Assembly (NCBI RefSeq): GCF_003814815.1
Contig: NZ_RKQQ01000003.1
Location: forward strand, 310,001-374,000
Reading direction: 5' to 3'
From: Salisediminibacterium halotolerans
GTDB lineage: Bacteria; Bacillota; Bacilli; Bacillales; Salisediminibacteriaceae
DNA: 64,000 bases
In this document: positions 20,629 through 64,000 of the stretch, piece after piece
How positions within the stretch are numbered: position 1 is the stretch's first letter
Layout: each line of letters begins with the position of its first letter
Program-made: the position numbers and the translations under genes
Notes under the pieces: generated by a model
Told to the model about the DNA's origin: nothing
The model's input: the letters and a program-made list of their open reading frames with translations, nothing else
Database searches by the model: none

Positions 20629-21690
20629 ATGTCATCAGAACGGAAACAAGCTTTGGATATGGCATTGAAACAAATCGAAAAGCAATTCGGCAAAGGGTCG
20701 ATTATGAAACTGGGTGAACAGGCAGAACAGCGTGTTTCAACCGTTTCGAGCGGTGCATTGGCGCTCGATATTGCTCTAGGCGTCGGCGGCTATCCGCGCG
20801 GCCGTGTTATCGAAATTTACGGACCGGAATCGTCCGGTAAGACGACAGTAGCTCTGCATGCGATTGCAGAAACACAAAAAAACGGCGGCCAGGCAGCATT
20901 TATTGATGCCGAACACGCGCTTGACCCGGCGTATGCACAAGCTTTAGGCGTTGATATCGACGAGCTGCTTCTTTCGCAGCCTGATACCGGTGAGCAGGCG
21001 CTGGAAATTGCTGAAGCGCTTGTTCGCAGCGGAGCGGTCGACATGGTCGTGGTCGACTCGGTCGCAGCGCTTGTACCGAAGGCTGAAATCGAAGGCGAGA
21101 TGGGCGATTCGCACGTCGGTTTGCAAGCACGCTTAATGTCCCAGGCTCTTCGGAAACTGTCCGGGTCCGTCAGTAAATCAAAAACAACAGCAGTATTTAT
21201 TAACCAAATCCGTGAAAAAGTCGGGGTAATGTTCGGAAGTCCGGAAACGACACCCGGCGGCCGTGCGCTGAAGTTTTATTCATCGGTCCGCCTTGAAGTC
21301 CGCCGTGCGGAAACACTTAAGCAAGGCAACGATATGATCGGAAATAAAACGAAATTAAAAGTTGTTAAAAATAAGGTCGCTCCGCCGTTTAAAACAGCAG
21401 AAGTCGATATTATGTACGGGGAAGGAATTTCCCGCGAAGGCTCGATCCTTGATATCGCTTCCGATCTGGATATCGTGCAAAAAAGCGGCGCATGGTATTC
21501 GTATAACGGCGATCGTCTAGGTCAAGGCCGGGAGAATGCGAAGCAATATATGAAAGAAAACCCAGAGACGGCTGAAGAAGTTGAATTAAAGATCCGTGAA
21601 TATCACGGATTGACGGAACCGAAAGACGTGCCGGCTCCGGACGAAAACGATCCGGAAAACGGCAAAGATCAGCCTTTGGATCTTAAATAA
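20629..21690 (+). CDS. recA: Recombinase RecA
   Basis: 353-residue strand-exchange ATPase, also the co-protease for LexA self-cleavage. Walker [10 protein letters not shown] at 65-73, Walker B region [18 protein letters not shown]2-type [17 protein letters not shown], and an acidic C-terminus. No intein. Start chosen at [10 protein letters not shown] with AAAGGAGA 7 nt upstream; the frame extends 24 nt earlier without a ribosome site. Its terminator is interrupted by a mobile element. Confidence 0.98.
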
Positions 21691-21696
21691 ACGAAA

Positions 21697-21716
21697 AGAC
21701 GGCCTCTTGGCCGTCT
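21697..21716 (+). repeat. Upstream copy of the recA terminator hairpin
   Basis: AGACGGCC/GGCCGTCT stem with loop TCTT, followed by CAAGG rather than a T tract. The same stem recurs about 420 nt later with loop CCC and a T tract. The two copies bracket the element. Confidence 0.85.
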
Positions 21717-21721
21717 CAAGG

Positions 21722-22134
21722 TGTAGACAAACTATTATTTTGACGTAAGCCATGAATCCACTACCCTCCGCTTGCCCCGGGCAAGGACTCAGCTAGGATT
21801 CGGCGGCCTCAGGCCGCCGAATCCGGATCTTCGTCTCTTGCTTTCCCGGAGGCGTCGGAGGAGTGTATGCATGGCTTCTTTTTTTTCAATACACTCGCTT
21901 CAAAAAAGAGGATGACCCAGCATCCCGGCTTTCTCCTGCGGGATAGCGGGATAGACGAGACCCTGCAGGGCATAAGCCCGAAGCGGCTCGGCGCTCGCCC
22001 GCGGACTAGTAAGACACGGCGAAGTCTTTTTGAGCCGATGTCGCAGTGATACCTTCAGGTGAAAGAAGCCGGACGATGCGCCGTCATCCGTTCCTTTTAA
22101 CATGACATCTAACGATGGCGTGACTTTGTCAACA
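21722..22134 (+). mobile_element. Terminator-targeting structured element, copy 1 (413 bp)
   Basis: Bounded by TGTAGACAAA and TTTGTCAACA, an imperfect 10-bp terminal inverted repeat. The left half folds into a long branched hairpin: CCTCCG, CACT and AGCCATG segments pair with CGGAGG, AGTG and CATGGCT over about 130 nt, enclosing ATTCGGCGGCC/GGCCGCCGAAT. A sub-terminal GACATC-type dyad lies near the right end. Two other copies occur in the window. Short open frames inside differ in residues and length between copies, so it is treated as non-coding. Likely a MITE-like non-autonomous transposable element; the helper family is unknown. Confidence 0.75.
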
Positions 22135-22138
22135 CTCT

Positions 22139-22163
22139 GAGACGGCCCCCGGCCGTCTTTTTT
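22139..22163 (+). terminator. recA terminator, downstream copy
   Basis: AGACGGCC-CCC-GGCCGTCT hairpin followed by seven T. It probably represents the original recA terminator end. Confidence 0.85.
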
Positions 22164-22235
22164 AAAAGCATTTTTAAGGCAGCAGTGTTTTTGTAACAAG
22201 CGCTGTTAAAACAGTCACATACGTTTTTTGACAGC

Positions 22236-22264
22236 TTGACAACACACGTCATGAAGCATACAAT
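22236..22264 (+). promoter_or_regulatory. Sigma-A promoter of rny
   Basis: Consensus TTGACA, 17-nt spacer, TACAAT. The leader to the start codon is about 125 nt. Confidence 0.78.
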
Positions 22265-22394
22265 TAACGGGAATACTGAATGAATCGGCAAAGAAATATT
22301 GCCGTTGCTGGATGTATCCAAGATGTTTAATGATGATTAGTATGTCTTAAACAAAACTGAAAAACAAAAGTAATAGCATGAGGAGGTGAATCAG

Positions 22395-29855: not shown

Positions 29856-29859
29856 AGAT

Positions 29860-30285
29860 TGTAGACAAATTATTCTTTTCACGTGTCACGCAGCCACTAA
29901 CCTCCGCTTGCCCCGGGCAAGGACTCAGCTAGTATTCGGCGGCCTGAGGCCGCCGAATACGGATCTTCGTCTCTTGCTTTCCCGGAGGCGTCGGAGGAAG
30001 TGGTTGCGTGGCTTTCTTACTTTGCAGAACAATATGGACACCGCGATGTTTGAAACAAGGAGGATGACCCAGCATCCCGGCTTTCTCCTGCGGGAAAGCG
30101 AGACAGGCGAGACCCTGCAGGGCCAAGCCCGAAGCGGCTCGGCGCTCGCCCGCGGACTAGTAAGACCCGGCGAAGTCTTATTGAGCCGATGTCGCAGTGA
30201 TACCTTCAGGTGAAAGAAGCCGGACGATGCGTAGTCATCCGTTCCTTTTAACATGACATCTAACGATGTCATGATTTTGTCTACA
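29860..30285 (+). mobile_element. Terminator-targeting structured element, copy 2 (426 bp)
   Basis: Perfect 10-bp terminal inverted repeats TGTAGACAAA/TTTGTCTACA. Same orientation and internal order as copy 1. The long left hairpin is kept but with changed bases: CACGCA pairs TGCGTG where copy 1 has a different sequence, and the inner stem has T-A where copy 1 has G-C. The sub-terminal dyad is GACATC-TAAC-GATGTC. It separates two copies of the korB terminator hairpin. No transposase and no stable reading frame. Confidence 0.78.
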
Positions 30286-30290
30286 GTCTG

Positions 30291-32726: not shown

Positions 32727-32758
32727 TTTAAGAGCCAGACAATTGTCTGGCTCTTAAA
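32727..32758 (+). repeat. Upstream copy of the kbl terminator hairpin
   Basis: A 32-nt perfect palindrome centred on AATT (arms TTTAAGAGCCAGAC and complement), immediately followed by the element. The core recurs after the element with one base changed. Confidence 0.88.
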
Positions 32759-32759
32759 G

Positions 32760-33115
32760 TGTTGACAAAGTCATGACATCGATTGATGTCCTATTAAAAA
32801 GAACGGATGACTACGCATCGTCAGGCTTCTTTCCTGCGGGCGAGCGCCGAGCCGCTTCGGGCTGATGCCCTGCAGGGTCTCGCCTGTCTCGCTATCCCGC
32901 AGGAGAAAGCCGGAATGCTGGGTCATCCTCTTTTTTGAAGCGAGTGTATTCATAAAAAAGAAGCCATGCATCCACTCCTCCGACGCCTCCGGGAAAGCAA
33001 GAGACAAAGATCCGGATTCGGCGGCCTCAGACCGCCGAATCCTAGCTGAGTCCTTGCCCGGGGCAAGCGGAGGGTAGTGGATTCATGGCTGACATAAAAA
33101 TATAGTTTGTCTACA
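32760..33115 (-). mobile_element. Terminator-targeting structured element, copy 3 (356 bp, inverted)
   Basis: Ends are TGTTGACAAA and TTTGTCTACA. Read on the minus strand it aligns with copies 1 and 2 from the branched hairpin through to the sub-terminal GACATC-type dyad, but lacks roughly 60 bp present in both others, between the GGCGCTCGCCCG and GACGATGCG segments. It therefore inserted in the opposite orientation relative to its host terminator. No transposase. Confidence 0.77.
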
Positions 33116-33119
33116 GTCT

Positions 33120-33146
33120 GAGAGCCAGACGATTGTCTGGCTCTTT
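33120..33146 (+). terminator. kbl terminator, downstream copy
   Basis: AGAGCCAGAC/GTCTGGCTCT stem around GATT, then TTTTT. Confidence 0.87.
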
Positions 33147-61964: not shown

Positions 61965-62061
61965 TGGCGGGACCGTCTGGGAATCGAACCCAGCGGAGAC
62001 GCCACGCGCCTCCCTGATGGTTTTGAAGACCACGGCAAGCACCAGCTACGCATCCGGCCCC
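61965..62061 (-). tRNA. selC: tRNA-Sec (anticodon UCA)
   Basis: 97 nt including an encoded CCA. The anticodon stem GUGGU/ACCAU encloses loop CUUCAAA, anticodon UCA, which reads UGA as selenocysteine. The long variable arm (GGGAGGCGC/GCGUCUCC) and T arm CUGGG-UUCGAUU-CCCAG are typical. Acceptor stem GGGGCCG pairs with CGGUCCC, with one G-U, and the eighth pair expected in tRNA-Sec is a G-A mismatch. Bacterial discriminator G. Divergent from selB. Confidence 0.95.
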
Positions 62062-62111: not shown

Positions 62112-62198
62112 GCAATTTTTGACTTTTGAAGCGTCTGAACTTATGACATATGCTAAAATAGGCAAGGTAGAAGCTGATAATCTCAAGAGGTGAGAATA

Positions 62199-64000
62199 TT
62201 GTCAAAAAGGTATTACACGATTGGAATGGCAGGTCATATTGACCATGGTAAAACGACGCTGACGAAAGCTCTGACAAACGTTGATACTGACCGTCTAAAA
62301 GCGGAAAAAGAACGGTCAATCTCAATCGAGCTCGGGTATGCCCCGCTCAAATTGGATGACAATATGGAAGTTTCAATTGTCGATGTTCCCGGTCATGAGA
62401 AATTTATCCGGCAAATGATTGCCGGCGTGGCAGGAATTGATTTAGTGCTGCTCGTCGTTGCGGCGGATGAAGGCGTGATGCCGCAAACAGTCGAACATTT
62501 GGATATCTTAAACCTTCTCGGTATTCATGAAGGCTTGATCGTTGTAACGAAAGCAGATTTGGTTGAAGATGATATGGAAGAACTGATTGAAGCGGATATT
62601 GCAGACCAGGTAGCGGGTACATTTTTCGAAGGAGCTGATCTTCACTTTGTAGACAGTGTGTCCGGCCGCGGGATCGATGACCTTCGCAGTGCGATCCGAA
62701 CGAAGCTCGCAGACGTGCAGATGCGCGATGCGCGCGGAGCATTCAGGCTCCCGGTCGATCAAGTTTTTACTGTGCACGGTCAAGGGACGGTGGTCCGCGG
62801 AACGGTATATGAAGGAAAGGTGACTGAAGGTGATACACTTGAAGTGCTTCCGGAACGAAAAAAAGTTCGTGCTCGGCAAATTCAGGTTCATCACGAAAAG
62901 CAGCCGTCAGGGCGTGCCGGCCAGCGGGTTGCGATCAACCTCGGCGGTGCATCGAAAGATGAGCTGCAGCGCGGAGATGTCCTCGTTTCCACGCAGTATT
63001 ACAGCACGACGACAACGGTAGATATCACATTGGATACGGTTGAGAATTTAAGGTTTCCGTTAAAGCAGCGCGGATATATTAAACTCCACCTTGGAACAGC
63101 CGAGGTGTACGGGAAGATTGTCTTTTTTGACCGCAATGAGCTGGTCGTCTCCGGCGGGCAAGGAATCCTCTGTCAACTGCGTCTCGACCATCCTGTCGTG
63201 ACAAAACGCGGCGATCGCTTCATCTTAAGGCGCCCGTCGCCTGTTGAGACGATCGGCGGCGGTTTTGTTATTGAGCCGAACGGTCAAAAATACCGCTTCG
63301 GTGAAGAAACGATTAAACAATTAGAACGCAAACGGGAAGGGACGCCGGAAGATCTTCTGTTTGATCTGTTAAAAACGGAGCGCTCAATGACACGCAGAGA
63401 TTTAACTGAAAAGCTCGGTACAGCCGAAGAAGAACTGGATGAGCTGCTCGTTGCCCATATAAATGAAGGGACAATTCGAACTGAAGCCGGCCGGATTTTT
63501 CTGCAGTCAGTCGCTGAAGAACTGCTGGAGCTGATTCAAGAAGATCTGGCTGCGTATCATCAATTGTATCCGCTTCGGGACGGCAAAGACCGTGCCGTTT
63601 TACTCCAAGAGTTTATATCGTACGGAAAAGAATTAACGTCACTCGTTCTCGATGAAGCTGCTGATCGCGGTGAATTAAAAAAACATGCTTCGGCTGTTGC
63701 ACTTGGAGATTTCGCGCCGGGTTTTCCGAAGCAATGGGCGAAAAGAATGGAACAAGTGGAGCAAACGATTAAAAATCAAGGGCTTGAAGTCGAACAAGAG
63801 AGTGAAATATTTGAACGTGCCGGGCTTCCGGCTGAATGGATACAGGAACTTCGTCATTATTTAATGCGCAGCAAGAAAGTAATTGAGCTCGATGAAAAAC
63901 ATCTGCTCAGTGTTGAAGCATTTAATGAAGCGGCCCGTAAGCTCTCTGCTGAAACAACAGAGCGTTTCAGTCTGCAAGATGCGAAGCAAGTTCTCGGTCT
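62199..64000 (+). CDS. selB: Selenocysteine-specific elongation factor SelB (3' end outside window)
   Basis: Carries Sec-tRNA to UGA codons marked by a SECIS hairpin. The first ~600 residues are present and open to the right edge. GTPase motifs GHIDHGKTT (12-20), the DVPGHEKFI switch II and VVTKADL; then EF-Tu-like domains 2 and 3, and the start of the C-terminal winged-helix SECIS-binding repeats ([22 protein letters not shown]). TTG start with AAGAGG 8 nt upstream; an extended -10 TGC-TAAAAT lies at 62151-62159. Divergent from selC. Confidence 0.96.

Follow-up and report, generated by a model that had tools for sequence, protein, structure and literature searches.

Transposable elements of the IS1182 family are already known to target terminator hairpins: as far as the available text of the two accounts goes, IS1272 and TnSha1 insert into terminator hairpins without preference for a primary sequence, and IS1272 deletes or replaces part of the target hairpin and generates no target duplication (PMC4923244, PMC5678879). 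In this study, the hairpin at positions 21748 to 21876 of the window (the whole 64,000-nucleotide stretch of Salisediminibacterium halotolerans DNA that was analysed) was found to be one module of a larger mobile element. This element resembles IS1272 and TnSha1, as described in those parts of the accounts, in its transposase family (NCBIfam) and in its insertion at terminator hairpins. However, an IS1182-type element with the target hairpin on both sides, as found here in 40 of 41 copies, contrasts with the reported behaviour of IS1272, and the conserved internal hairpin module is unmentioned in the available portions of the IS1272 accounts (PMC4923244, PMC5678879).

At the gathering score, no Rfam family was found over the module in the window or in 20 + 20 related loci, and a lax search of positions 21600 to 22300 returned nothing above that score. 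Likewise, no description of the module appeared among the papers listed by the literature searches, and those listed by a full-text search for stretches of its sequence look unrelated. REP and REPIN elements carry two inverted hairpins each. The present element is similar to them as a palindromic intergenic repeat with two inverted hairpins, and differs from them in its IS1182-type ends and in residing in a genome without a Y1 transposase. The BOX, RUP and SPRITE families are not known outside narrower groups, whereas the core module described here is distributed order-wide and is common to elements with different ends and duplications. In the available text on those families (PMC10969869), they share with the present element a short, non-coding and multicopy nature, terminal repeats, strong structure and ends resembling those of an autonomous insertion sequence. 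The Bacillaceae-1 RNA (RF01690) is also a high-copy structured repeat of the Bacillales without G-U excess and sometimes lies inside the module, but its sequence and fold differ and it is usually independent of the module. In addition, the 74-bp stem-loop repeat Bhal-1 of Bacillus halodurans fits the B-type module described below in size and host order and could be a relative of it, the comparison being with the description of Bhal-1 in the accessible part of its account (PMC2267715).

The first copy of the element occupies positions 21717 to 22139 (plus strand) and has the ends CAAGGTGTAGACAAA and TTTGTCAACACTCTG, which are of the same kind as those of the IS1182 of this genome. It is flanked on the left by a terminator hairpin (21696 to 21717) with no T-run after it on the plus strand, and on the right by a copy of the same terminator stem (22140 to 22163, plus strand) in which the T-run is present. 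Within the element, the main hairpin, module A (21748 to 21876, plus strand), which is marked by its fold and covariation, contains a match at 21763 to 21862 to the covariance model R1, which was used for the cross-genome module search. A second, reversed and diverged module copy, module B, lies at 21928 to 22015 (minus strand), and module C (22007 to 22061, plus strand) is an insert of about 56 nt in module B. The second copy of the element (29856 to 30290, plus strand) carries module A at 29899 to 29998 (plus) and module B at 30080 to 30166 (minus), with AGCGCTCATTTATGAGCGCT on both sides. The third copy (32755 to 33120, minus strand) carries module A at 32976 to 33075 (minus) and module B at 32821 to 32913 (plus), is devoid of module C and is flanked on both sides by GAGCCAGACAAT[C/T]GTCTGGCTC. 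In the three window copies, module A scored 101.8, 104.0 and 100.1 bits and module B scored 14.4, 24.9 and 25.7 bits, of which the lowest (14.4 bits, E 0.13) is insufficient alone. The elements in the window are about 365 to 435 bp long, typically about 420 bp, which is too short for a transposase gene, and no ORF longer than 99 amino acids was found within copy 1.

Module C (TAGTAAGACACGGCGAAGTC...GGTG) was missing from four of the 41 copies (L036, L038, L039 and L041). Its conservation among copies (diversity 0.019) equals that of the module A core, and its relatives in other genera adjoin B-type modules (L044, L045). Elsewhere in the window, a selenocysteine tRNA gene (anticodon tca) was observed at 61965 to 62061 (minus strand) beside an ORF at 62190 to 63998 (plus strand), the translation of which presumably resembles the elongation factor SelB; therefore, the host probably makes selenoproteins.

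The genome contains a single PF13751 match, which is an intact IS1182 transposase gene (NF033551, E 6e-135). The element that encodes it (L042) has the ends CAGAGTGTCGACAAA and TTTGTCTACAGTCTG and lies between two copies of the hairpin ACCGTCCCTCTTCTTTAGAGGGACGGT; a B-type module (23.5 bits) is present in it on the same strand as the transposase. Left ends of the TGTAGACAAA type and right ends of the TTTGTC[T/A]ACA type were found in L042 and, sometimes with single changes, in almost every one of the 41 small-element copies. Moreover, the same flanking hairpin, usually terminator-like, stood on both sides of 40 of the 41 copies when a match was defined as a score exceeding the 99.5th percentile among 820 swapped pairs (maximum 11.0); the exception was L025, in which the right flank differs. 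The first window copy (L001) scored exactly 11.0 because its loops differ and its stems are identical. By the same measure, the flank stem had at least six pairs in 37 of the 41 copies. The right flank was T-rich in 27 of 40 copies and the left flank A-rich in 23, both being so in 14, and the exclusive classes numbered 13 versus 9 (p 0.52). The right-hand hairpin thus usually keeps its T-run, and so a terminator-like hairpin persists after insertion. The element is short, has terminal inverted repeats and a flank duplication, lacks a transposase gene and occurs in many copies; furthermore, it shares its ends with an element encoding an IS1182 transposase and is inserted at palindromes or terminators. 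By these sequence features, it is a non-autonomous IS1182-type transposon (MITE), with the IS1182 transposase as its putative mobilising enzyme.

Among the flanking hairpins of L001, L002, L006, L015, L035, L036 and L039, the stems are often the same and the loops different, and the loops flanking L035 appear inverted (TTTTT versus AAAAAA). These loop differences may reflect either fast mutation of the loop or a trace of hairpin duplication.

The 129-nt stretch at 21748 to 21876 folds far more stably than expected by chance, both as RNA (-76.8 kcal/mol, z -7.9) and as DNA (-43.4, z -8.7), and in each case none of 200 shuffles equalled it. The initial annotation had argued from the three window copies that compensatory changes preserve the stems and had suggested selection on a folded RNA or cruciform and not on a protein. 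A search of the own assembly gave 75 matches, of which 40 candidates were scored; 41 loci were read, L001 (the copy at 21748 to 21876), L033 and L041 being the window copies. Alignment A1 comprised 43 hairpins, namely 40 loci and three neighbouring copies in L004, L027 and L030, with 40 distinct rows, and L040 was omitted because of an insertion within its hairpin. The individual changes reported were all confirmed in A1: the inner-stem pair at columns 53/79 is G-C in copy 1 (21.75 kb) and T-A in copy 2 (29.9 kb), the outer-stem pair at columns 7/128 is T-A in copy 1 and C-G in copy 2, and in copy 3 (33.0 kb, minus strand) column 63, opposite a G, has changed from C to T. However, these two best pairs rank among those most often broken. 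Among the 40 distinct rows, columns 53/79 held GC in 14, TA in 7, CG in 1 and a broken pair in 18, and columns 7/128 held TA in 23, CG in 8, TG in 2 and a broken pair in 7. The outer stem of copy 1 also carries one broken pair (AGTGTATG versus AGTGGATG in most copies).

Over all 48 pairs of the 40 distinct rows, 92 cells were broken and 54 were changed yet paired, and by the refuting criterion of the initial annotation itself, stems broken as often as kept, the argument as originally made therefore fails in the larger own-genome alignment. The proportion of paired cells in these rows (95.2%) was close to that in shuffles (94.4%), the double-changed cells numbered 29 versus 17.6 and the double-changed pairs 5 versus 4.2, and RNAalifold on the 43 rows found no more than two double-changed pairs, with a covariation term of -0.17. 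Own-genome covariation was consequently rejected as evidence for the fold, since breaks outnumber restorations; either the recent copies are under weak selection, or they are in decay. Within the element, diversity across the 40 aligned copies was lowest in the core of the module and in module C (0.017 to 0.024), compared with 0.112 for the left end and 0.099 to 0.147 for the spacers. In the omitted locus, L040, a second, different small element has inserted at 223 to 490 into the 3' arm of module A; it has the ends GAGGCTGCTGAAAAAG and CTTTTTCAGCAGCCTC, a duplication of about 9 bp (CTTGCTTTC) and a module of its own (66.9 bits).

Comparison across genera gave the opposite outcome for the stems. 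The matches from the same family have the frame of the window module and a different apical stem, and in alignment A2 (10 sequences from seven genomes) 12 of 32 pairs were changed on both sides. Alignment A3 contained 60 sequences, namely the best match of each of 55 loci (one per genome) and five secondary matches. In A3, 26 of 27 pairs were changed on both sides, the double-changed cells numbered 348 versus 91 in shuffles, 95.4% of the cells were paired versus 71.4% in shuffles, and the covariation score was 0.547, compared with 0.140 for shuffles and at most 0.070 for slid partners. Because A3 was fitted to the model, the arms outside the model were tested separately; the 18-nt flanking arms had a mean duplex energy of -11.1 kcal/mol versus -5.4 kcal/mol for arms exchanged among genomes (n=55, p 7e-17). 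The hairpin fold conserved across the order is real. With a covariance model built and covariation tested across genera, the proposal of a selected fold is correct for the module as a family and is unprovable from the three window copies on which it had been based.

Quasi-palindromes are corrected by template switching during replication. Covariation might thus arise by mutation, with arm-to-arm correction of long imperfect palindromes and no selection on the fold, and this process would explain the well-paired arms of unrelated sequence, the strict Watson-Crick pairing and the scarcity of G-U pairs described below. We consider it unlikely, since the module core is conserved among copies and since correction would tend to erase the asymmetric bulges and the internal loop, whereas the bulges (CTT, CTTT, one A and one T) were, like the internal loop, 77-100% conserved per column in the 60 sequences of A3.

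A single-stranded RNA under selection is expected to contain many G-U pairs and few A-C pairs. In A3, 20 cells were G-T (1.3%) and 17 were A-C (1.1%), and the tolerance of G-U on one strand expected of a structured RNA family was thus absent. In the control, 6S RNA from 30 genomes of the same family, G-U cells numbered 134 (11.0%) and A-C cells 6 (0.5%), a ratio significantly different from that of the module (Fisher p 4e-9); in this comparison the module alignment was fitted to its model, and the 6S structure was obtained by RNAalifold on a MAFFT alignment. In the copies of this genome, G-U versus A-C amounted to 26 versus 28 cells, or 17 versus 10 pairs. When MAFFT and RNAalifold were run on the 60 module matches, 68 G-T and 12 A-C cells were counted, an excess that was judged to result from misalignment; this run recovered only 18 pairs and was dropped from the main count. 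The finding that G-U is no commoner than A-C therefore argues against a single-stranded RNA and for a DNA fold, a two-strand constraint or template-switch repair. Of the two alternatives in the initial annotation, folded RNA or cruciform, the fold itself has held, and the near absence of G-U pairs makes DNA more likely than RNA as the folded molecule.

The autonomous IS1182 elements bear on the same question. By eye, these run from the left end through a terminator-like hairpin, the module and a hairpin covering the ribosome site to the transposase start. The module lies upstream of the IS1182 transposase ORF on the same strand, at about 100-117 nt in L076, L079, L081, L101, L078 and L086 and at about 70 nt from the start codon in L104, and in these elements it is probably transcribed within the transposase leader. 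This position, beside terminator-like and ribosome-site hairpins, is one that an RNA role would predict likewise. The module could accordingly be a structured RNA with a putative regulatory role in the leader of the transposase mRNA, for example one that prevents expression from read-through transcripts, and it would be retained in the small elements either through descent or because the transcripts of those elements are important. Its position on the sense strand, about 70-117 nt before the transposase start, and the covarying pairs beyond chance in A2, in A3 and in the arms outside the model are consistent with such an RNA. Nevertheless, we regard this role as doubtful, given that G-U is no commoner than A-C in the module, compared with 134:6 in 6S RNA, that the module ranks among the best-conserved stretches of an element without room for a transposase gene, and that the elements have no clear orientation bias to the target terminators (13 versus 9).

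Matches to R1 were found in 35 of 35 genomes of the family and in 112 of 199 sampled genomes of the order, with at least 121 in this genome. A strict sequence pattern, which in species genomes returned only three records (Alkalicoccus urumqiensis, Halobacillus andaensis and a Bacillus MAG), was much less sensitive than the covariance model. No module match was found in plasmid and phage records, and there were 0 matches in viral contigs. The module number was correlated neither with the PF13751 number (rho 0.14, p 0.44) nor with the Y1_Tnp number (rho -0.13) across 35 genomes with module counts up to at least 121. The hairpin and inverted second hairpin in one element recall a REP/REPIN-like element moved by a Y1 (RAYT-type) transposase acting on single-stranded hairpins, with the IS1182 ends being secondary. 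Moreover, in one genome (G155) the modules are followed downstream by decayed reading frames (L151-L155), the peptide of which we take, by eye in L155, to resemble an IS200-type TnpA. Such an origin is nonetheless highly improbable: Y1_Tnp is absent from nine of the 35 family genomes and its counts are uncorrelated with the module, and the copies here have IS1182-type ends and targets. For this genome (G000), mobilisation by Y1/RAYT was rejected, since 0 matches to PF01797 (Y1_Tnp) were found despite the at least 121 modules.

The module-carrying elements have at least five types of ends. In addition to the TGTAGACAAA type, GAGGCTGGGACAAAACCC-type ends were found in G002 and G010. Elements of about 187 bp around the module in G113 have AGCTCTGTTAAA-type ends and duplications of about 8 bp, those of about 248 bp in G190 have CACGGCTGTTGATTA ends and duplications of about 9 bp, and those of about 206-210 bp in G215 have GGGGCTGTATCAAAA ends and no clear duplication. 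We propose tentatively that the module may be an order-wide folded-DNA part common to unrelated Bacillales transposon families and acting in cis in transposition, with Bacillaceae-1 in the same DNA-level class. Bacillaceae-1 had 8 G-T versus 11 A-C of 476 cells in 28 sequences (L201-L226, L228 and L230, with L227 and L229 dropped).

Bacillaceae-1, which is annotated as an sRNA in Rfam, had matches in 77 of 150 genomes of the order. Its matches were nearby or nested in four of 40 related loci scanned. The first cases were nested in 4/4, but those loci had been chosen for other element parts. Among 30 loci drawn order-wide, 29 were scored (L229 was dropped because its core was not found), and nesting was seen in one of 29 by pattern (0/174 controls) and in about four of 29 by eye. 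A fixed place for Bacillaceae-1 within the module was therefore rejected as a general rule.

From the fold, the ends, the target and the placement of the module, we infer that the hairpin at 21748 to 21876 is the main hairpin module of an IS1182-type MITE that would act in cis as folded DNA, a reading to which we assign a probability of roughly 0.5. The bulged hairpin would form when one strand is exposed, either as the lagging strand or by extrusion under supercoiling. The predicted reading site consists of the bulges and the internal loop, which are conserved (CTT; TCAGC facing GGATCTTC; CTTT), and their reader may be the transposase itself or a protein of the host, acting while the carrying element transposes. 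The failure of module numbers per genome to track PF13751 (n=35) was counted against this DNA role.

Compensatory change normally counts as evidence that proves an RNA. In this module it is overwhelming, and yet the pairs show the behaviour expected of DNA, with no G-U excess. If the proposed reading is true, the comparison of G-U with A-C pairs could sort other candidate RNAs in mobile repeats. Furthermore, the long-standing question of why palindromic repeats are maintained in the genomes of bacteria would become testable on one defined and widespread module.
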